Assembly (NCBI GenBank): GCA_021325035.1
Contig: JAJPHW010000212.1
Coordinates: 1-32,362 of the forward strand
Direction of reading: 5' to 3'
Source of the DNA: Terriglobia bacterium
GTDB taxonomy: Bacteria > Acidobacteriota > Terriglobia > Terriglobales > Acidobacteriaceae
DNA length: 32,362 bases
The position numbers and the translations under genes were made by a program. The notes beneath the pieces were generated by a model. It was given only the letters and a program-made list of their open reading frames with translations, was not told where the DNA came from and ran no database searches. The first letter of the stretch is position 1, and each line of letters begins with the position of its first letter. Shown here piece by piece: positions 22,746 to 30,164 of this stretch.

Positions 22746-23849
22746 TTATTCATTTCGCTTATGTAAGTTGTAGCGAGATGGATATTTGAAAATCGGCTTC
22801 AAGGGAAATCCCGGTACTGACTTAAGCGCATCCTGAATTTGCTTCATCGTGGTTGGGCCGTTGAGGATAAGTGGAGTAAATCCATTCGGGGTAAGTAGCA
22901 TTAAATCTCCTCTCACTGTGGCAAAGACCCCATAAACTTCAACGCTGTGCGGCGTTATATAAATGACTTGCAGGCGAACAATTTGGTGATCGTCAATTAC
23001 CTCCACGGCTGAGTCATCATAATTTCTGTCCCAATCCGGTTGTTCCATCTTTAGGGTATTGGCTTGCAAACTAACAGGGCTTCCCCATACCCCGCCCATT
23101 TGAAGCCCGATGTTCAGCTTTAACTGTCCATTATCCACAAACGCATCAACATATAACTCATCCAAACGCGCAATATGTTGGGGCGTTGAAGAATTGTTTT
23201 GTGGGCCTACGTTCATCGAATTTCCGGCAGCCGCGACAATGAAATAATCGGGATCGTCTCGAAATGTAGAGTTTTCTTTCCTTTGCGGTTCCTCTGTTTT
23301 GCTCGCTTCCGGCACTAGAGTCGCGGGCAGAGTAGGCAACGGCATGTCCTTGGGCGGAATGGTTTTCTTCGTCTGCATTTGCGGCTTTATGACGGGGTCC
23401 TGATTAGGAAAAGAGGACGTGGGAGGATCGGACTGCTTATCGGAGGGGTGAGTGGCTGCGTCTGATTTATCCGGCTTGAGGGCTTCCACTTTGGACACCC
23501 TAAAGAGTATGGATGCCAAGATTAAGGAGGAAAAAATCGTCAAGGCCCACTTGTTTGGGGCACTTTCTACAAAATAAGAGCACACCTTCCAGATGGCCAA
23601 TACGCCCCATGGCAACGCCATTAAGAGATACCAGCGGGGGTCTTTCATGACCACGGCCAAGAAGAGAGAAATAAATGTAATGAAGATTCCAATACACGAC
23701 CACAAGAAGGTGCTTTCGGATATGGGAATTGCGTGAGGTGGCTTCGGTTCCGTTTCTGATTTATTTGCCTGCGCTTCCCTGGCTTGAGCCAATTTGTCCG
23801 GATGGTTTCTCCACCATTTCGGGCTATGGCCTTCGGGGTACCTAAACAC
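22746..23849 (-). CDS. Unrecognised membrane protein
   Basis: This 367-residue protein was not recognised. The start is placed at GTG 23847-23849 because GGAGG (23858-23862) lies eight bases before it; the frame is open for five more codons. The N-terminus (FRYPEGHSPKWWRNHPDKLA) is basic and aromatic. Three hydrophobic segments follow: FLWSCIGIFITFISLFLAVV, WYLLMALPWGVLAIW and WALTIFSSLILASILFRV. A Pro/Ser/Thr/Lys-rich linker leads to a C-terminal soluble domain of about 150 residues rich in Asn and Asp (VDNGQLKLNIGLQMGGVWG, VRLQVIYITPHSVEVYGVFA). Codon use is visibly more AT-rich than in neighbours, suggesting foreign origin. The translation is coherent to the end, so it is probably a real gene. 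Confidence 0.65.
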   Translation of the reverse strand: MFRYPEGHSPKWWRNHPDKLAQAREAQANKSETEPKPPHAIPISESTFLWSCIGIFITFISLFLAVVMKDPRWYLLMALPWGVLAIWKVCSYFVESAPNKWALTIFSSLILASILFRVSKVEALKPDKSDAATHPSDKQSDPPTSSFPNQDPVIKPQMQTKKTIPPKDMPLPTLPATLVPEASKTEEPQRKENSTFRDDPDYFIVAAAGNSMNVGPQNNSSTPQHIARLDELYVDAFVDNGQLKLNIGLQMGGVWGSPVSLQANTLKMEQPDWDRNYDDSAVEVIDDHQIVRLQVIYITPHSVEVYGVFATVRGDLMLLTPNGFTPLILNGPTTMKQIQDALKSVPGFPLKPIFKYPSRYNLHKRNE

Positions 23850-24300
23850 GAAAAACACCTCCACAGGGGAAGCTTAAGCATAGCATTCTCCCTTGCATGA
23901 AGTGCACAATCTCGTTTATTAACGTATTAGTTTCAGCTAGTTAGACTGATTATGGCATTAATTTTTAAGCGAAGATTAGACGAACCCGATGTCGAGTGCC
24001 CCCAGAAAACATCCCTAAGTCATTGACGATTCGTGGAAGTTGTTGATTCTTCGTTCGGGGCGGTTTTCCGAGCTGCGTCAGCGCGTTGGGCAGCCCTCGT
24101 AAACATGCATTTCTTGGCGTCCTGGATGGCCTCAGAGCGACGATCGTCCTCGCAGACGAACTTGCCCCCGTTCTTTCGTCCAAGAGCCCCACCGGGCCGT
24201 AAAACGCCTTCCTGTACGTTTCCCAAAATGGGACACAACTGTATGTACGATTACAGGCGGGCTCGTTTACAAAAAGCAGATTTCTCAGCCCTAAAGAGCA

Positions 24301-24505: not shown

Positions 24506-25843
24506 CTAATCTTCGACGATGCGCGCTGTGATTTCCTGCTCGGGTTCTCCACCGACGGCGGTTTGCGCAATGATTAAGCGGCGGGCTTCCACGCGGATCT
24601 TCGGCAGTTGCAACCAGAAGAGGGCCGAACCGCCGATGCAGGCCACCGCGCCCATCGCCACCGCAACTGGAGCGCCCACGCGGTCCGCCATCGCGCCGCC
24701 GAACAACGCTCCGAAGGGCGCCATCCCCATGAACATCATGGAATATAAGGACATCACGCGGCCGCGCAGTTCATCGGGCACCATGGCTTGAATCAACGTG
24801 TTCGATGACGACATTTGCAGCATCACGAAAAAGCCGACGGGCAGAAGCAGCGCCGCAGACAACACAAAATTTCTGGACAATGAAAATAAAATCAGGCTGA
24901 CGCCAAAAGCTCCGCAGGAAAACGCCACCCAACGGCCTAGGCCGTGAACGCCGGTGCGGGAGGCGAGAGTCAGAGCGCCTAAAAGCGCGCCCACCCCGGT
25001 CATACCCATAAGAATGCCGAGTCCGCGCGCGCCGCCATGCAGAATTTTGTCGGCGAATACCGGCATCAGAACGGTGTAAGGCATGGCGACTAAACTGACC
25101 AGTCCCAGTAAAAGAAGAATTGCGCGAATCGGTTTGGTATCGCGGGCAAAACGGAAACCTTCCAGAATGTGCGCGATGGGCGACGCTTCGGAAGCGCGAT
25201 AGGCATGTTCGGGGATTTTCATCATCAGCAAACCGATGATGACGGCGATGTAGCTCACCGAGTTGGCGAAAAAACACCAGCCTTCGCCGATTCTTGCGAC
25301 TAAAATTCCGGCAATCGCCGGCCCTATGATGCGCGCGCCGTTGAACATGGATGAGTTCAGAGCGATCGCATTCATCAAGTCTTCTTTGCCAACCATGTCC
25401 ACCAGAAATGCCTGGCGGCCGGGAATATCGAAGGAATTGACGATGCCGAGCAAGGCGGCGAGAACAAAAATATGCCAGATGCGTACATGACCCGTAAGAG
25501 TAAGCGCAGCCAGGATCGCGGCGAGAATCATGGAAGCGACCTGCGTTCCGATGACGACTTTTTGGCGGTTGTAGCGGTCGGCGACAATCCCGCCGAGCGG
25601 GGCCACGAGAAACACAGGGAATTGGCTGGCAAAGCCGACCGAACCGAGTAACAGCGCGGAACCGCTGAGACGATAGACCAGCCACGCCTGGGCGACGCTC
25701 TGCATCCACGTACCGATCAGCGAGATTAGCTGGCCACTGAAAAATAACTGAAAGTTGCGGTGCTTCAGCGCGCGAATGGTTGCGGGAAGACTTTTCGAAC
25801 TGGCCGGAACTGGACTGGATTGCTCTGCTTGCGCGGCTTTCAT
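24506..25843 (-). CDS. MFS exporter, EntS/DHA3-like
   Basis: A 445-residue major-facilitator protein with about twelve hydrophobic spans. The N-terminal FQLFFSGQLISLIGTWMQSV and the loop GGIVADRYNRQKVVIGTQ (the GxxxDRxxRxxxxx motif after helix 2) are typical of the DHA3/EntS (transmembrane secretion effector) branch. VDMVGKEDLMNAIALNSSMF and GARIIGPAIAGILVARIGEG match its mid-region. Members export siderophores, drugs or metabolites by proton antiport. The substrate is unknown and no biosynthetic cluster is next to it. The ATG at 25841-25843 is followed by a hydrophilic N-terminus of about 28 residues. A TATGGA box lies six bases before the start. Confidence 0.9.
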   Translation of the reverse strand: MKAAQAEQSSPVPASSKSLPATIRALKHRNFQLFFSGQLISLIGTWMQSVAQAWLVYRLSGSALLLGSVGFASQFPVFLVAPLGGIVADRYNRQKVVIGTQVASMILAAILAALTLTGHVRIWHIFVLAALLGIVNSFDIPGRQAFLVDMVGKEDLMNAIALNSSMFNGARIIGPAIAGILVARIGEGWCFFANSVSYIAVIIGLLMMKIPEHAYRASEASPIAHILEGFRFARDTKPIRAILLLLGLVSLVAMPYTVLMPVFADKILHGGARGLGILMGMTGVGALLGALTLASRTGVHGLGRWVAFSCGAFGVSLILFSLSRNFVLSAALLLPVGFFVMLQMSSSNTLIQAMVPDELRGRVMSLYSMMFMGMAPFGALFGGAMADRVGAPVAVAMGAVACIGGSALFWLQLPKIRVEARRLIIAQTAVGGEPEQEITARIVED

Positions 25844-26006
25844 GCTCTATCCATAAGATGACGGCAACATGCCTGCCGATGCGGGGCCTCTAAAACGCGC
25901 CCCAACCAGTCACTAACTATTCACTTTGCGGCATTGCTCTTCTGAGTTAATGTTAAGCGATTTCCATTTGGTAGGCGCACGGCCACTTCTGAGTATAGGG
26001 GCGCAC

Positions 26007-26399
26007 ATGAACACTGGCGAACTTCGTCTGGAACGCCGCGGTGGGCAAAGATTTGGTTTTCAAATGCCGATTGGCATCTGCCGGGCTGGCAGCGGCATTG
26101 AAGGGAATGGATTTACGCATGATTTAAGCGCGAGAGGAGCGTCTTTTTATACCGATCTGACGCTTTCTTTAGGCGATGCCGTGGAACTTACGCTGGTCAT
26201 GCCCTCAGAAATTACACTGGCGGAAAGCATGCGCGTGCGTTGTCGCGGCAAAGTGGTTAGGGTGTTTCCCTCCGTCGTACCGGGAAAATTTGGGGTTGCA
26301 GTGCAACTTCATGGATATGAGTTCCTGCCGGATGCGAGTTTTCCGTCCGCGATTGGGGATTCAGCTCGAATGCATGTGCAACAACATTTAGACGCCTAG
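26007..26399 (+). CDS. PilZ-domain c-di-GMP-binding protein
   Basis: A 130-residue single-domain PilZ protein. Both signature parts are present: RGGQR (R11-x3-R15) and DLSARG (D39-x-S41-x2-G44), which together bind cyclic di-GMP. The strands that follow (VELTLVMPSEITL, VRCRGKVVRVFPS, FGVAVQLHGYEF) complete the barrel. The ATG at 26007 is preferred because it starts directly before the domain and follows GGGG by six bases; an ATG at 25950 would add 19 residues. The CpaE-like ATPase gene lies 259 bp downstream on the same strand, suggesting surface or pilus-related signalling. Confidence 0.88.
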   Translation: MNTGELRLERRGGQRFGFQMPIGICRAGSGIEGNGFTHDLSARGASFYTDLTLSLGDAVELTLVMPSEITLAESMRVRCRGKVVRVFPSVVPGKFGVAVQLHGYEFLPDASFPSAIGDSARMHVQQHLDA

Positions 26400-26658
26400 C
26401 CCTTCGGTCTAACAGCACTGGGCTAAGACTTTCAGGCTATAAAGTATCCCTCGGTTGTGCCCTTCCAAAGGTAACCGCTTTTGCATAGAATTGGTGCAAC
26501 GGTTTCCCTTCTCCTGCCGGCCTCCCCGATGTGGTGTTTGCTGTCACCCTCGGTTTTTGCCGTCCGGAGGACGCCGCCGCCGATTACGGAAGTCACTTGG
26601 CGTAATAGCATGTCACTCCATACCATGCTGTTACCCGTACTAATATTGAGGCTCGAGC

Positions 26659-27894
26659 ATGCAGGGCATCGCGGTCACAGTACTGAGTGAAGATAAAGAA
26701 CGGCTAAGTCTGCTTCAGCAACGGCTGGAAGCGACGCAACTGGTCCGCATCGTTTTTGCTCATCCCGGCTTTCCTGCCTCACCCACCGACGCAGTTTTAC
26801 GCCAGATTCAGGATGTACGTTCGGAAATCGTCATTGTGGACATTGATCCCCGCGATGTTTCGCGGGCGATCCGCGCGATTGATGTGCTGCGCGAAAATAC
26901 GGTGGACATCGCCATATTTGCCTGCGGAGAGATGACCAATTCGGCGGCAATTGTGTCCGTGATGCGCGCCGGCGCGGGCGAATATCTGGAACGCAATGCC
27001 AGCACGGAAGTGATTCTTGAAGCACTGGGAAGGTTTGCCTCTGCGCGCAACAAGATGCGGGCCACCTCGGGGCGGGCACGCGTGATTACGGTGACCAACG
27101 CCAAAGGTGGCGCGGGAGCGACCACGGCCGCCGTGAACATTGCCGTTGCGCTGCAAGCCGCGCGGGGCGGAGTTTTGCTGGTGGATTTCGCATGTCTGGG
27201 ACATGCCGCGTTGCAGTTGAATGCACGCCCGACTTTCGGGTTGGCGGATGCTCTGCAAAACCTGCATCGCATGGATAATTCCCTGCTCGACGGCCTGCTG
27301 ACCGAATGCAAAGACGGGTTGCAGTTGCTTGCCGGGCCGCAACAGCCCATGCTCTTAAGCCCTGCGACGGCGGAACTGGCGCGGCTCTTTGATCTTTTGG
27401 TTTCGAGTTTCCGCTATGTCGTGGTGGATTGCTCCAACCGCCTCGATCAAACGGGAAAGCTGATAAGCGAACTCTCCAACGCTGTGCTGTTGGTGGCGCA
27501 AACTGACGTGGTTTCCTTGTGGAGCGCCAGCCGCGTACGGACATTCCTGGAAGAGGGCGCGGTCCGCGACCGTGTGCGGCTTGTGCTCAACCGCTATAAG
27601 AAGATTCCGGGGTTCTCGGACGAAGATGTGGAAGAAACGACGCACTGCAAGCTTCTTTGGAAGCTTCCCAACAATCACCAGGCCATTGCGCCGTCTCTCG
27701 ACAAAGGCAGCCCCGTGGCCTATCAGGATAGCTACGACATTTCGCGCTCTTACCACTCATTGGCGGCAACTCTGGCGGATGCAGCCCCAACGGCCGAGGG
27801 TTCTCTGGACTTGAGCTATCAGAGTGACAAAACGGACACAAAAAAGAAGCCTGCCGGGCGTCTTTTGATCTCGCCTCTACGCGCCGGGCAATAG
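26659..27894 (+). CDS. CpaE/TadZ-like ATPase (receiver-like plus MinD-like domains)
   Basis: This 411-residue protein has two parts. Residues 1 to about 130 resemble a response-regulator receiver (VTVLSEDKERL, IVIVDIDPRD with Asp61, VMRAGAGEYLERNAS). Residues 140-380 form a ParA/MinD ATPase domain (VITVTNAKGGAGATTAAVNI, GVLLVDFACLGHAALQL, YVVVDCSNRLDQ). The P-loop reads KGGAGATT, so the usual catalytic-loop Lys is Ala while the ParA-type signature Lys149 stays; loss of that Lys is known in the CpaE/TadZ group, which positions Flp/Tad pili at the pole. No other Tad gene is nearby. GAGG lies seven bases before the ATG. The 259-bp leader holds a small hairpin (AGCATG/CATGCT, 26607-26629) and nothing else recognised. 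Confidence 0.85.
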   Translation: MQGIAVTVLSEDKERLSLLQQRLEATQLVRIVFAHPGFPASPTDAVLRQIQDVRSEIVIVDIDPRDVSRAIRAIDVLRENTVDIAIFACGEMTNSAAIVSVMRAGAGEYLERNASTEVILEALGRFASARNKMRATSGRARVITVTNAKGGAGATTAAVNIAVALQAARGGVLLVDFACLGHAALQLNARPTFGLADALQNLHRMDNSLLDGLLTECKDGLQLLAGPQQPMLLSPATAELARLFDLLVSSFRYVVVDCSNRLDQTGKLISELSNAVLLVAQTDVVSLWSASRVRTFLEEGAVRDRVRLVLNRYKKIPGFSDEDVEETTHCKLLWKLPNNHQAIAPSLDKGSPVAYQDSYDISRSYHSLAATLADAAPTAEGSLDLSYQSDKTDTKKKPAGRLLISPLRAGQ

Positions 27895-27935: not shown

Positions 27936-30164
27936 CTAGACGGCTGCGGCGGAGGTTTTCGCCTCCAGCATCGCGTAGATGGCTGGATTGGTGCAGACTT
28001 CGTAGTAACGGCGCGCCGTCCACTGCTGGAGACCGAAGTTGCTGGTGTCAATTTGCGCGATGTGACTGCCGCGAATGATGACTTTGCGGAAGATATCTTT
28101 GCCGACGGGGACCATTCCATTCCAGAGACGGAAATCCTCGCTGCCCCACAGCTCAGGCAGCTGCAATTTGCAGACTTCCAGGGCGATTTCTTCCTGTAAC
28201 CGCTTAAATGCGGCTTCGCTGATGCGCACGCCATTCAAGTTGTACTTCATGATGAAATCATCGGCACTCTCGCCCATCTCGGCATCGCCGACGGTTTGGA
28301 AGGCATAAACATTGAATGGCGATTCGAGCGATTCGATGGTCTTGCGCACGCGCTTATTACAAGATGAAAGGCGGTCGCTCTCGTTCAAGGCATCGGAAAT
28401 CATGATTCTCGCGTCGCCATCCATCAAATACATGGGCGCAGAATCCTGATAGGAAATACCGATTCCCAACTCGAGCGGGGGCAATCCTGAGCTTTGCAGC
28501 AGCTTGTTATAACCGCAAACAATGTCAATGATTTCGCGGGCCAAAACGCAGGCTTTGCTCACGGCAAGGGCGGGTTCGCCTTCACGCTCAAAGAGGGCAA
28601 GAATGATGGCATCGCCTTCGAGAAAAACTTTGCTGGCATCGTATTTGGCGAGAAGCTTATTCACCGGATCATAAAAGTTCAGGCTGAAATAGGAAGCCGG
28701 ATTCATATCGCGTTCCATCAGAGAGCGAGTCAGCCGCGATGAATCGCGCACGTCGGCCTTCAAGATCACATGCCGTACAACTTTGCTCTCGGCTGGTTTC
28801 TGTTCTTCGGGCAGCAGAAACTCGTAAAGCGTGCTGTTCATGGCCGAAAGTTCGCGCAAGCGTCCGGTACCGATTAAATTCACGCCATCGAGCGCGGCGT
28901 TGAGGGTTTCAAGACGGCGCCAGTCGCGGTGGTAGCAAATAAAATCGCGCAGAAAACGGCCAGCAAGTTTGGCCCGTTCCGCGCCCTTGCTGCTGCCGAC
29001 GCGAGCCAATGCATCGCGGAAATTCTCCGCACCGGGCTTGCCCTGCTCCTGGATCAGCTTTTCCACGCGGTCGCGCTCTTCCCGCGAAATAAGGCCGTTC
29101 TTCAACTGGTGCGCATTGATGCGCGGCGAGTAAACGGCAAGCAGCGGGATCACCTCGTAGGAAGCTACGACGTGGTCCATGATCTTTTCTTTCTCCAGGA
29201 CATTGAGCCACGCCGTTAAACGAGTTTTCTGAGAGCGGCCTTCGGGAGTGTTTTCATCCGGCGAGCCGGAGCCGACAAGTTCATGCGCATTTTCCGGCAG
29301 GTTAAGCCATCCATCCACTGTTGCCTCTACCTCAGAGTCCGGGCCCAAATTGAGAGTTTGCAGAAAGTCGTACACAATCCGGCGGACATTGGCAAAGCGG
29401 TCAGGATCGCGGTCAAAATTTCCCAACATCACATAGTGTTCGGCGTTAACGTGAGCGTCTTTGCCGTCTTCGGCAAAGATCAATGGATTCAGAAAGAGCT
29501 TATATTCTTCTTCCGTTGCATTGCCGAACAAGGAGCGGCGAGTGCGGGCCAGAGTTTCTTTTTCGATTTCGCGCAGCGTGCGAAACAATTCCTGCCCGGT
29601 CTTGCGTAAGATGATTTTCTTGGCGACCTGAAACTCGGAAACGCGTTCGCGATATTCCAGAGCTTTCTGGGCACGCACGCCTTCATAACTATTCAGCAGA
29701 GCGCGGCAGCGTTCCAGCGCTTGCGCAAATTGCGCCTGCAATTCGATGCGGAGAAACTTGGTGATGGCCAACCGGGCCAGTAAATCAATGGTCAGTTTGC
29801 CTTCGGCCTTGGCGCGATTCAAAGCGGCGACATGAATATCCGCCAACAGCGGCTTCAATTCGGAGGTTTCAACCTTGACTTTGGCTTTGTTACTGGGTTG
29901 GCTCCCGATAAACTGTGTTCCACCGGGGCGCTTCGTATCCTCCGCGGCCAGCAGCCCTTCAATATTGCCGTGGCGGGTGATGAGATGCGCGATCTGATGG
30001 CGCATCTGCTCCACAAATTTCGTGCTGAGATGAACATCGTGACGCAGGTTGTCCACCCCGAGTTGCAATCCCTTCAATGAAAGTGAAGGAGCATAACTAC
30101 CCAGGGTCGGAGGCGTAATTTCTTCAGAGCTTTGCCCAAGTCTGAATAAGGGAAGTCGAGGCAT
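27936..30164 (-). CDS. Large protein with a C-terminal class III nucleotidyl cyclase-like domain
   Basis: A 742-residue protein with no signal or membrane span. Residues 1 to about 450 are mostly helical and unrecognised (TRRSLFGNATEEEYKLFLNP, YDFLQTLNLGPDSEVEATVD). Residues about 463-605 look like a class III adenylate/guanylate cyclase catalytic domain: VILKADVRDSSRLTRSL carries the first metal Asp (471), KVFLEGDAIILAL the second (518), LELGIGISYQD the following strand, and N594-x3-R598 in ALNESDRLSS the transition-state Asn and Arg. All residues needed for two-metal catalysis therefore appear present. The last 140 residues form an extra domain (VYAFQTVGDAEMGESADDFI). It converges on the CpaE-like gene. 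Nucleotide preference and activity are unproven. Confidence 0.75.
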   Translation of the reverse strand: MPRLPLFRLGQSSEEITPPTLGSYAPSLSLKGLQLGVDNLRHDVHLSTKFVEQMRHQIAHLITRHGNIEGLLAAEDTKRPGGTQFIGSQPSNKAKVKVETSELKPLLADIHVAALNRAKAEGKLTIDLLARLAITKFLRIELQAQFAQALERCRALLNSYEGVRAQKALEYRERVSEFQVAKKIILRKTGQELFRTLREIEKETLARTRRSLFGNATEEEYKLFLNPLIFAEDGKDAHVNAEHYVMLGNFDRDPDRFANVRRIVYDFLQTLNLGPDSEVEATVDGWLNLPENAHELVGSGSPDENTPEGRSQKTRLTAWLNVLEKEKIMDHVVASYEVIPLLAVYSPRINAHQLKNGLISREERDRVEKLIQEQGKPGAENFRDALARVGSSKGAERAKLAGRFLRDFICYHRDWRRLETLNAALDGVNLIGTGRLRELSAMNSTLYEFLLPEEQKPAESKVVRHVILKADVRDSSRLTRSLMERDMNPASYFSLNFYDPVNKLLAKYDASKVFLEGDAIILALFEREGEPALAVSKACVLAREIIDIVCGYNKLLQSSGLPPLELGIGISYQDSAPMYLMDGDARIMISDALNESDRLSSCNKRVRKTIESLESPFNVYAFQTVGDAEMGESADDFIMKYNLNGVRISEAAFKRLQEEIALEVCKLQLPELWGSEDFRLWNGMVPVGKDIFRKVIIRGSHIAQIDTSNFGLQQWTARRYYEVCTNPAIYAMLEAKTSAAAV

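Follow-up and report, generated by a model that had tools for sequence, protein, structure and literature searches.

How far does a class III nucleotidyl cyclase extend within a large bacterial protein that domain databases do not recognise, and can such a protein be expected to be active? The question is raised by an open reading frame at positions 27936-30164 on the minus strand of the window, the 32,362-nucleotide stretch of Acidobacteriota DNA analysed here, which derives from a 3.86 Mb draft genome (contig C180). The frame starts with ATG and encodes 742 amino acids, and neither Pfam nor NCBIfam holds a model that matches the protein, Pfam being equally without a match for 19 members of its family. 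An earlier note on the DNA had proposed a likely active cyclase at residues 463-605, placed between long terminal regions that resembled nothing recognised. Our analysis suggests that the cyclase is a divergent class III domain covering residues ~457-735 (27960-28796, minus strand) of a soluble, probably homodimeric enzyme, and we consider this explanation, taken as a whole, to be fairly likely.

Structure prediction gave the proposed fold. The AlphaFold model of the C-terminal part (mean predicted local distance difference test score, pLDDT, 83.8; predicted template modelling score, pTM, 0.60) shows the elements in the order known from class III cyclases, and the top Foldseek matches are CyaC (E 1e-6) and Cya2. 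In total, 112 Protein Data Bank (PDB) chains were found at E<=0.001, and all 50 among the matches listed are nucleotidyl cyclases. VIA aligned 154-188 residues to class III cyclases with Z scores of 15.6-17.0, the best being the alignment to Cya2 (Z 17.0, 187 residues, 3.6 Å) over the model range 457-735. Since the structural alignments span 457 to ~735, the domain is considerably longer than first assumed, and the C-terminal 140 residues, previously thought to match nothing, are mostly the remainder of the cyclase fold: in the model, they form its final strands together with an insertion. No strongly hydrophobic membrane segment was detected, and the top 19-residue hydropathy value (1.56) lies within the cyclase domain.

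The relationship is also seen with sequence profiles. In hhalign comparisons with 24 PF00211 domains, the canonical adenylyl/guanylyl cyclase family, residues 440-742 reached a probability of 90.0% and residues 455-630 reached 92.4% (E 5e-7 to 1.6e-6), and 92.4% was likewise obtained when 60 homologues were included, as compared to 0.4% for the N-terminal part, 0.2% for a reversed profile, and at most 1.5% for 30 column shuffles. PDB sequence searches gave no match with the single 742-residue protein and only chance-level matches with the family profile, one of which was Cya2 in register (E 2.5). The fold of GGDEF diguanylate cyclases is distantly related to that of class III cyclases; this assignment was rejected, as the protein has no GG(D/E)EF motif, its hairpin reading EGDA, and as hhalign probabilities to 13 GGDEF domains of the window's genome were only 0.2-0.3%. 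Outside the family, the profile searches described below returned only eight matches, all weak (three in the phylum search and five in the class search; E 8e-9 to 9.5e-4). Seven of these eight loci were read, and motifs of class III cyclases are present in all seven. Four of them, namely the three phylum-search loci and one from genome G024, are clear members of the class and have sensor or membrane regions of their own; the three others have FSDIRGF and KYIGDA motifs, with a clear VNxxxR in two. One of the seven matches PF00211 at E 9.7e-26. The eighth (G570), a locus outside the seven read, was matched in the same segment as that of G024.

The residues expected to carry out catalysis are all present, at the residue numbers originally given, and the codons translate accordingly. 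D471 at the end of strand beta-1 (KADVRDS; 28752-28754, minus strand, as for all residues below) and D518 in the beta-2/beta-3 hairpin (FLEGDA; 28611-28613) take the positions of the two metal-binding aspartates, both in the hhalign register, and N594 (28383-28385) and R598 (28371-28373) align to the transition-state VN-x3-R of class III enzymes. None of the four varies among 60 distinct homologues, between which the identity of the cyclase domains falls as low as 47%; this conservation is thus far beyond chance. H465, K469, R473, S475, F514, E516, G517, M588, I589, S590, S596, and D597 are invariant as well, and the mean conservation of the cyclase core is 0.71 versus 0.47-0.58 for the N-terminal domain. 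Fold, register, and catalytic residues together support membership in the class III cyclase superfamily, and from the modeled fold and the register it would follow that D471 and D518 cluster at one metal site. By analogy with class III enzymes, one subunit would contribute D471 and D518 as ligands of two divalent metals and of the triphosphate, and the other would contribute N594 and R598 to stabilize the transition state. Attack of the 3' oxygen on the alpha phosphate would release pyrophosphate and leave a 3',5'-cyclic nucleotide. With a class III fold, the correct catalytic positions, and strong conservation, it is reasonable to call the protein likely active, as had been done before. What that description had missed is that the substrate-reading residues are non-canonical.

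It is the base-reading residues in which this family departs from canonical cyclases. For comparison, we used 28 high-scoring PF00211 domains of the phylum, all of which have Phe two residues before the first metal aspartate (D1-2), Lys four residues before the second (D2-4), an aliphatic residue two before the second (D2-2), and Thr, Ser, or Asp seven before the asparagine (N-7). The 742-residue family has Lys, Phe, Glu, and Ile at these positions: K469 (D1-2; 28758-28760), F514 (D2-4, the canonical base-reading Lys/Glu position; 28623-28625), and E516 (D2-2, normally Ile/Leu/Met/Val; 28617-28619) are each found in 60 of 60 homologues. I587, at the canonical Thr/Asp position, is Ile in 59 of 60 or gapped in the alignment, and it may not truly correspond to the canonical residue, because a four-residue gap precedes ISDALN in the hhalign alignment. 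A further 20 lower-scoring PF00211 domains were more variable, and where they were legible, none had Phe at D2-4 or the combination of Lys, Phe, and Glu. Neither the adenylyl cyclase pair (Lys with Asp/Thr/Ser) nor the guanylyl cyclase pair (Glu with Cys/Gly) is thus present. As the base-reading residues are replaced, and identically so in all 60 homologues, the product is not predictable, and ATP or GTP cannot be assumed as substrate. The base may be read by an unusual pocket to which K469 and E516 belong and in which F514 replaces the usual Lys, and the substrate may therefore not be ATP, or may be recognized in another way. Overall, the protein is probably active as a nucleotidyl cyclase, with a base pocket that departs from the canonical one.

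With respect to the substrate, there are two ways to read this pocket; both are sub-cases of a divergent class III cyclase, so that their likelihoods overlap with that of the whole explanation and do not add up with it. The protein could be an ordinary adenylyl or guanylyl cyclase forming cyclic AMP (cAMP) or cyclic GMP (cGMP), in which Lys and Phe are swapped and K469 supplies the lysine. Relative to the canonical Phe at D1-2 and Lys at D2-4, the two residue types are indeed interchanged in K469 and F514, and in the related cyclase EaPycC both of these positions contact the base (PMC11224242). No PF00211 cyclase is present in the window's genome, which nevertheless encodes seven cNMP_binding proteins, alongside 15 GGDEF matches and one CYTH-domain protein. 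However, a motif scan and reading of the seven cNMP_binding proteins (L100-L106) found the usual phosphate-cassette Arg in none of them, and canonical PF00211 cyclases also occur in 20 of the 34 carrier genomes tested. We regard this reading as possible, with a likelihood clearly below one half. The 20 carriers also indicate that the 742-residue protein is not simply a replacement for a canonical cyclase, and the idea that it is the sole cyclase of its genome is weakened by them, although it fits the window's genome. Of the cNMP_binding proteins, L102 and L106 run on into thioredoxin-reductase-like regions and L105 into a kinase-like region.

The other way is a non-canonical product such as cyclic CMP (cCMP) or cyclic UMP (cUMP). 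The altered positions D1-2, D2-4, and D2-2 are the very positions with which EaPycC reads CTP, namely F100 (D102-2), R142 (D146-4), and Q144 (D146-2; PMC11224242), and the sole match in PADLOC is PycC, albeit a weak one (E 0.0097, residues 470-574). The residues K469, F514, and E516 are, however, unlike those of the PycC clades discussed in that study (PMC11224242), the gene has no apparent Pycsar effector of the TIR or transmembrane type alongside it, and the neighbours are ordinary chromosomal rather than defence genes. More specifically, no PycTM or PycTIR effector was apparent among 62 loci compared, in which the recurrent neighbours were annotated and not every open reading frame was scanned. 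We consider cCMP or cUMP formation doubtful. Equally doubtful is the more far-reaching idea that the rebuilt pocket (K469, F514, E516) yields a product other than cAMP or cGMP under the control of a new type of helical sensor, and that this product is perceived by an unrecognised receptor.

Several observations speak against a class III cyclase. PF00211 gave no match at any reported level for the 19 family members searched with Pfam, its cut-off accordingly not being reached by the 742-residue protein, the protein lacks the Lys and the Thr/Asp by which canonical enzymes read the base, and no receptor or phosphodiesterase gene is conserved beside the gene in the 62 loci. The loss of the base-reading pair and the lack of a neighbouring receptor gene would agree with a class III fold that has been repurposed, for regulation or otherwise, and that binds a nucleotide without cyclizing it. 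The four catalytic residues are nevertheless invariant in all 60 homologues, which would not be required of a domain that only binds, and a non-catalytic role thus appears rather unlikely to us.

The cyclase-like domain is preceded by a large N-terminal domain (residues 1-455; 28800-30164, minus strand), for which AlphaFold predicts a single unit made up largely of helices (pLDDT 82.4, pTM 0.80). That this part matches nothing recognised was borne out, as Pfam, NCBIfam, Foldseek, and VIA all gave no confident match: the best Foldseek hit had an E-value of 0.11, and the best VIA hit, to exocyst Sec6, had a Z score of 6.6, which is within the chance range for helical models. The domain was folded as one 455-residue piece, and a sub-domain match could have escaped these searches. 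It may control the catalytic domain, acting as a sensor or as a module for dimerisation.

The gene is genuine, and it is a member of a family found in the class Terriglobia. Using a 19-row family profile, we searched 297 genomes of the phylum and 299 of the class. Matches were obtained in 88 of the 299 class genomes, nearly always as a single full-length gene of about 740-920 amino acids, while full-length matches in the phylum-wide sample were confined to six genomes, the window's included, all of the window's own family. Homologues were found in 16 of 41 relatives, those named being Terriglobales and other Acidobacteriota metagenome-assembled genomes, and in none of 14 sampled genomes of family f2, which belongs to the same order. 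Homologues of another lineage (f85; L136-L161) are ~80-90 amino acids longer than the window protein, and two further members, L016 and L024, are also longer, with the additional residues located in the N-terminal domain beyond about residue 275. Searches of plasmids, phages, and viral contigs revealed no relatives, and a mobile or phage-borne origin is therefore not indicated. Literature searches of an open-access library turned up no description of the family.

The genes next to the cyclase-like gene had been taken as a hint to a common signalling cluster with a second cyclic-nucleotide input. The neighbours themselves are there: a CpaE/MinD-like ATPase gene (Pfam AAA_31; 26659-27894, plus strand) is convergent with the cyclase-like gene at a distance of 41 base pairs, and a PilZ-domain gene (Pfam PilZ, E 1e-7; 25926-26399, plus strand) lies in the same cassette. 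A cluster of PilZ, CpaE-like, and cyclase-like genes is, however, contradicted by the comparison of the 62 loci. The CpaE-like gene adjoins the cyclase-like gene in only three of them, the window, L067 (with no PilZ called), and L020, and in L168 the CpaE-like/PilZ cassette is two genes away. With the convergent orientation and so rare an adjacency, shared signalling is unsupported and in our view highly improbable, and both genes are placed outside the system. The cassette itself, which comprises CpaE-like, PilZ, and MFS-transporter genes (24506-27894 of the window), is kept together in L020 and L168, and also in L067 without a called PilZ.

On the other side, a creatininase-family gene (PF02633; 30297-31163, minus strand) is located 132 base pairs upstream and is a local neighbour only. 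The usual same-strand upstream genes in the window's lineage encode a MutY-like glycosylase, a redoxin, and an M28 peptidase or TPR protein, and a convergent TonB-C gene is found downstream. In the f85 lineage, the same-strand upstream row consists of genes for a SpoIIE phosphatase, Nnr, and TsaE, often with another conserved gene before them; at L136 (1744-6013), the phosphatase of this conserved row is of the SpoIIE-HAMP type. Farther away, the window contains a minus-strand open reading frame of 372 amino acids without a Pfam match (22746-23864).

If the protein is active, a conserved branch of class III cyclases has been overlooked by domain databases, and a hitherto unrecognised second messenger may come to light in a phylum that is abundant in soil. 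With an intact catalytic core and a substrate that is not predictable from the known code, the family would lend itself to testing directly how the base is selected by class III enzymes, and its helical N-terminal domain could be a regulatory input of a new type.

How, then, does the family relate to known systems? DUF2652 (PF10851) is an uncharacterised, class III cyclase-like, single-domain family of ~250 residues on average, the mycobacterial members of which are without the asparagine (PMC4886424). It shares the LEGDA hairpin and the Glu at D2-2, and E516 alone is therefore not unique. The two DUF2652 sequences that we compared keep Lys at D2-4, whereas the 742-residue family has Phe. Membership in DUF2652 was rejected, as PF10851 does not match, hhalign gave 2.9% to the two DUF2652 sequences, and the protein has 742 residues and a second domain. 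Acidobacteriota were not among the phyla listed for DUF2652 in the 2016 survey (PMC4886424), and we noted two such genes in one Acidobacteriota genome (G064; L064:1378-1986 and L065:1396-1860), the latter match containing one in-frame TGA. A second relative is the Pycsar cyclase PycC (EaPycC, PDB 8JSF; Foldseek E 7.7e-5), which likewise belongs to class III and has non-canonical base residues at the same positions; clade E PycC has Phe/Arg/Gln where the 742-residue family has Lys/Phe/Glu, and the latter is a much larger protein. With the class III adenylyl and guanylyl cyclases CyaC of Spirulina platensis, Cya2 of Synechocystis, and CyaB of Pseudomonas aeruginosa (PF00211), the family shares the fold over 154-188 residues, the two metal aspartates, the transition-state Asn and Arg, and the order of elements. 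It differs from them in its low identity (~9-19% in structural alignments), in the exchanges of Lys to Phe, Phe to Lys, and an aliphatic residue to Glu, with the Thr/Asp lost or replaced by Ile, and in its large unrelated N-terminal domain and the absence of a PF00211 match.
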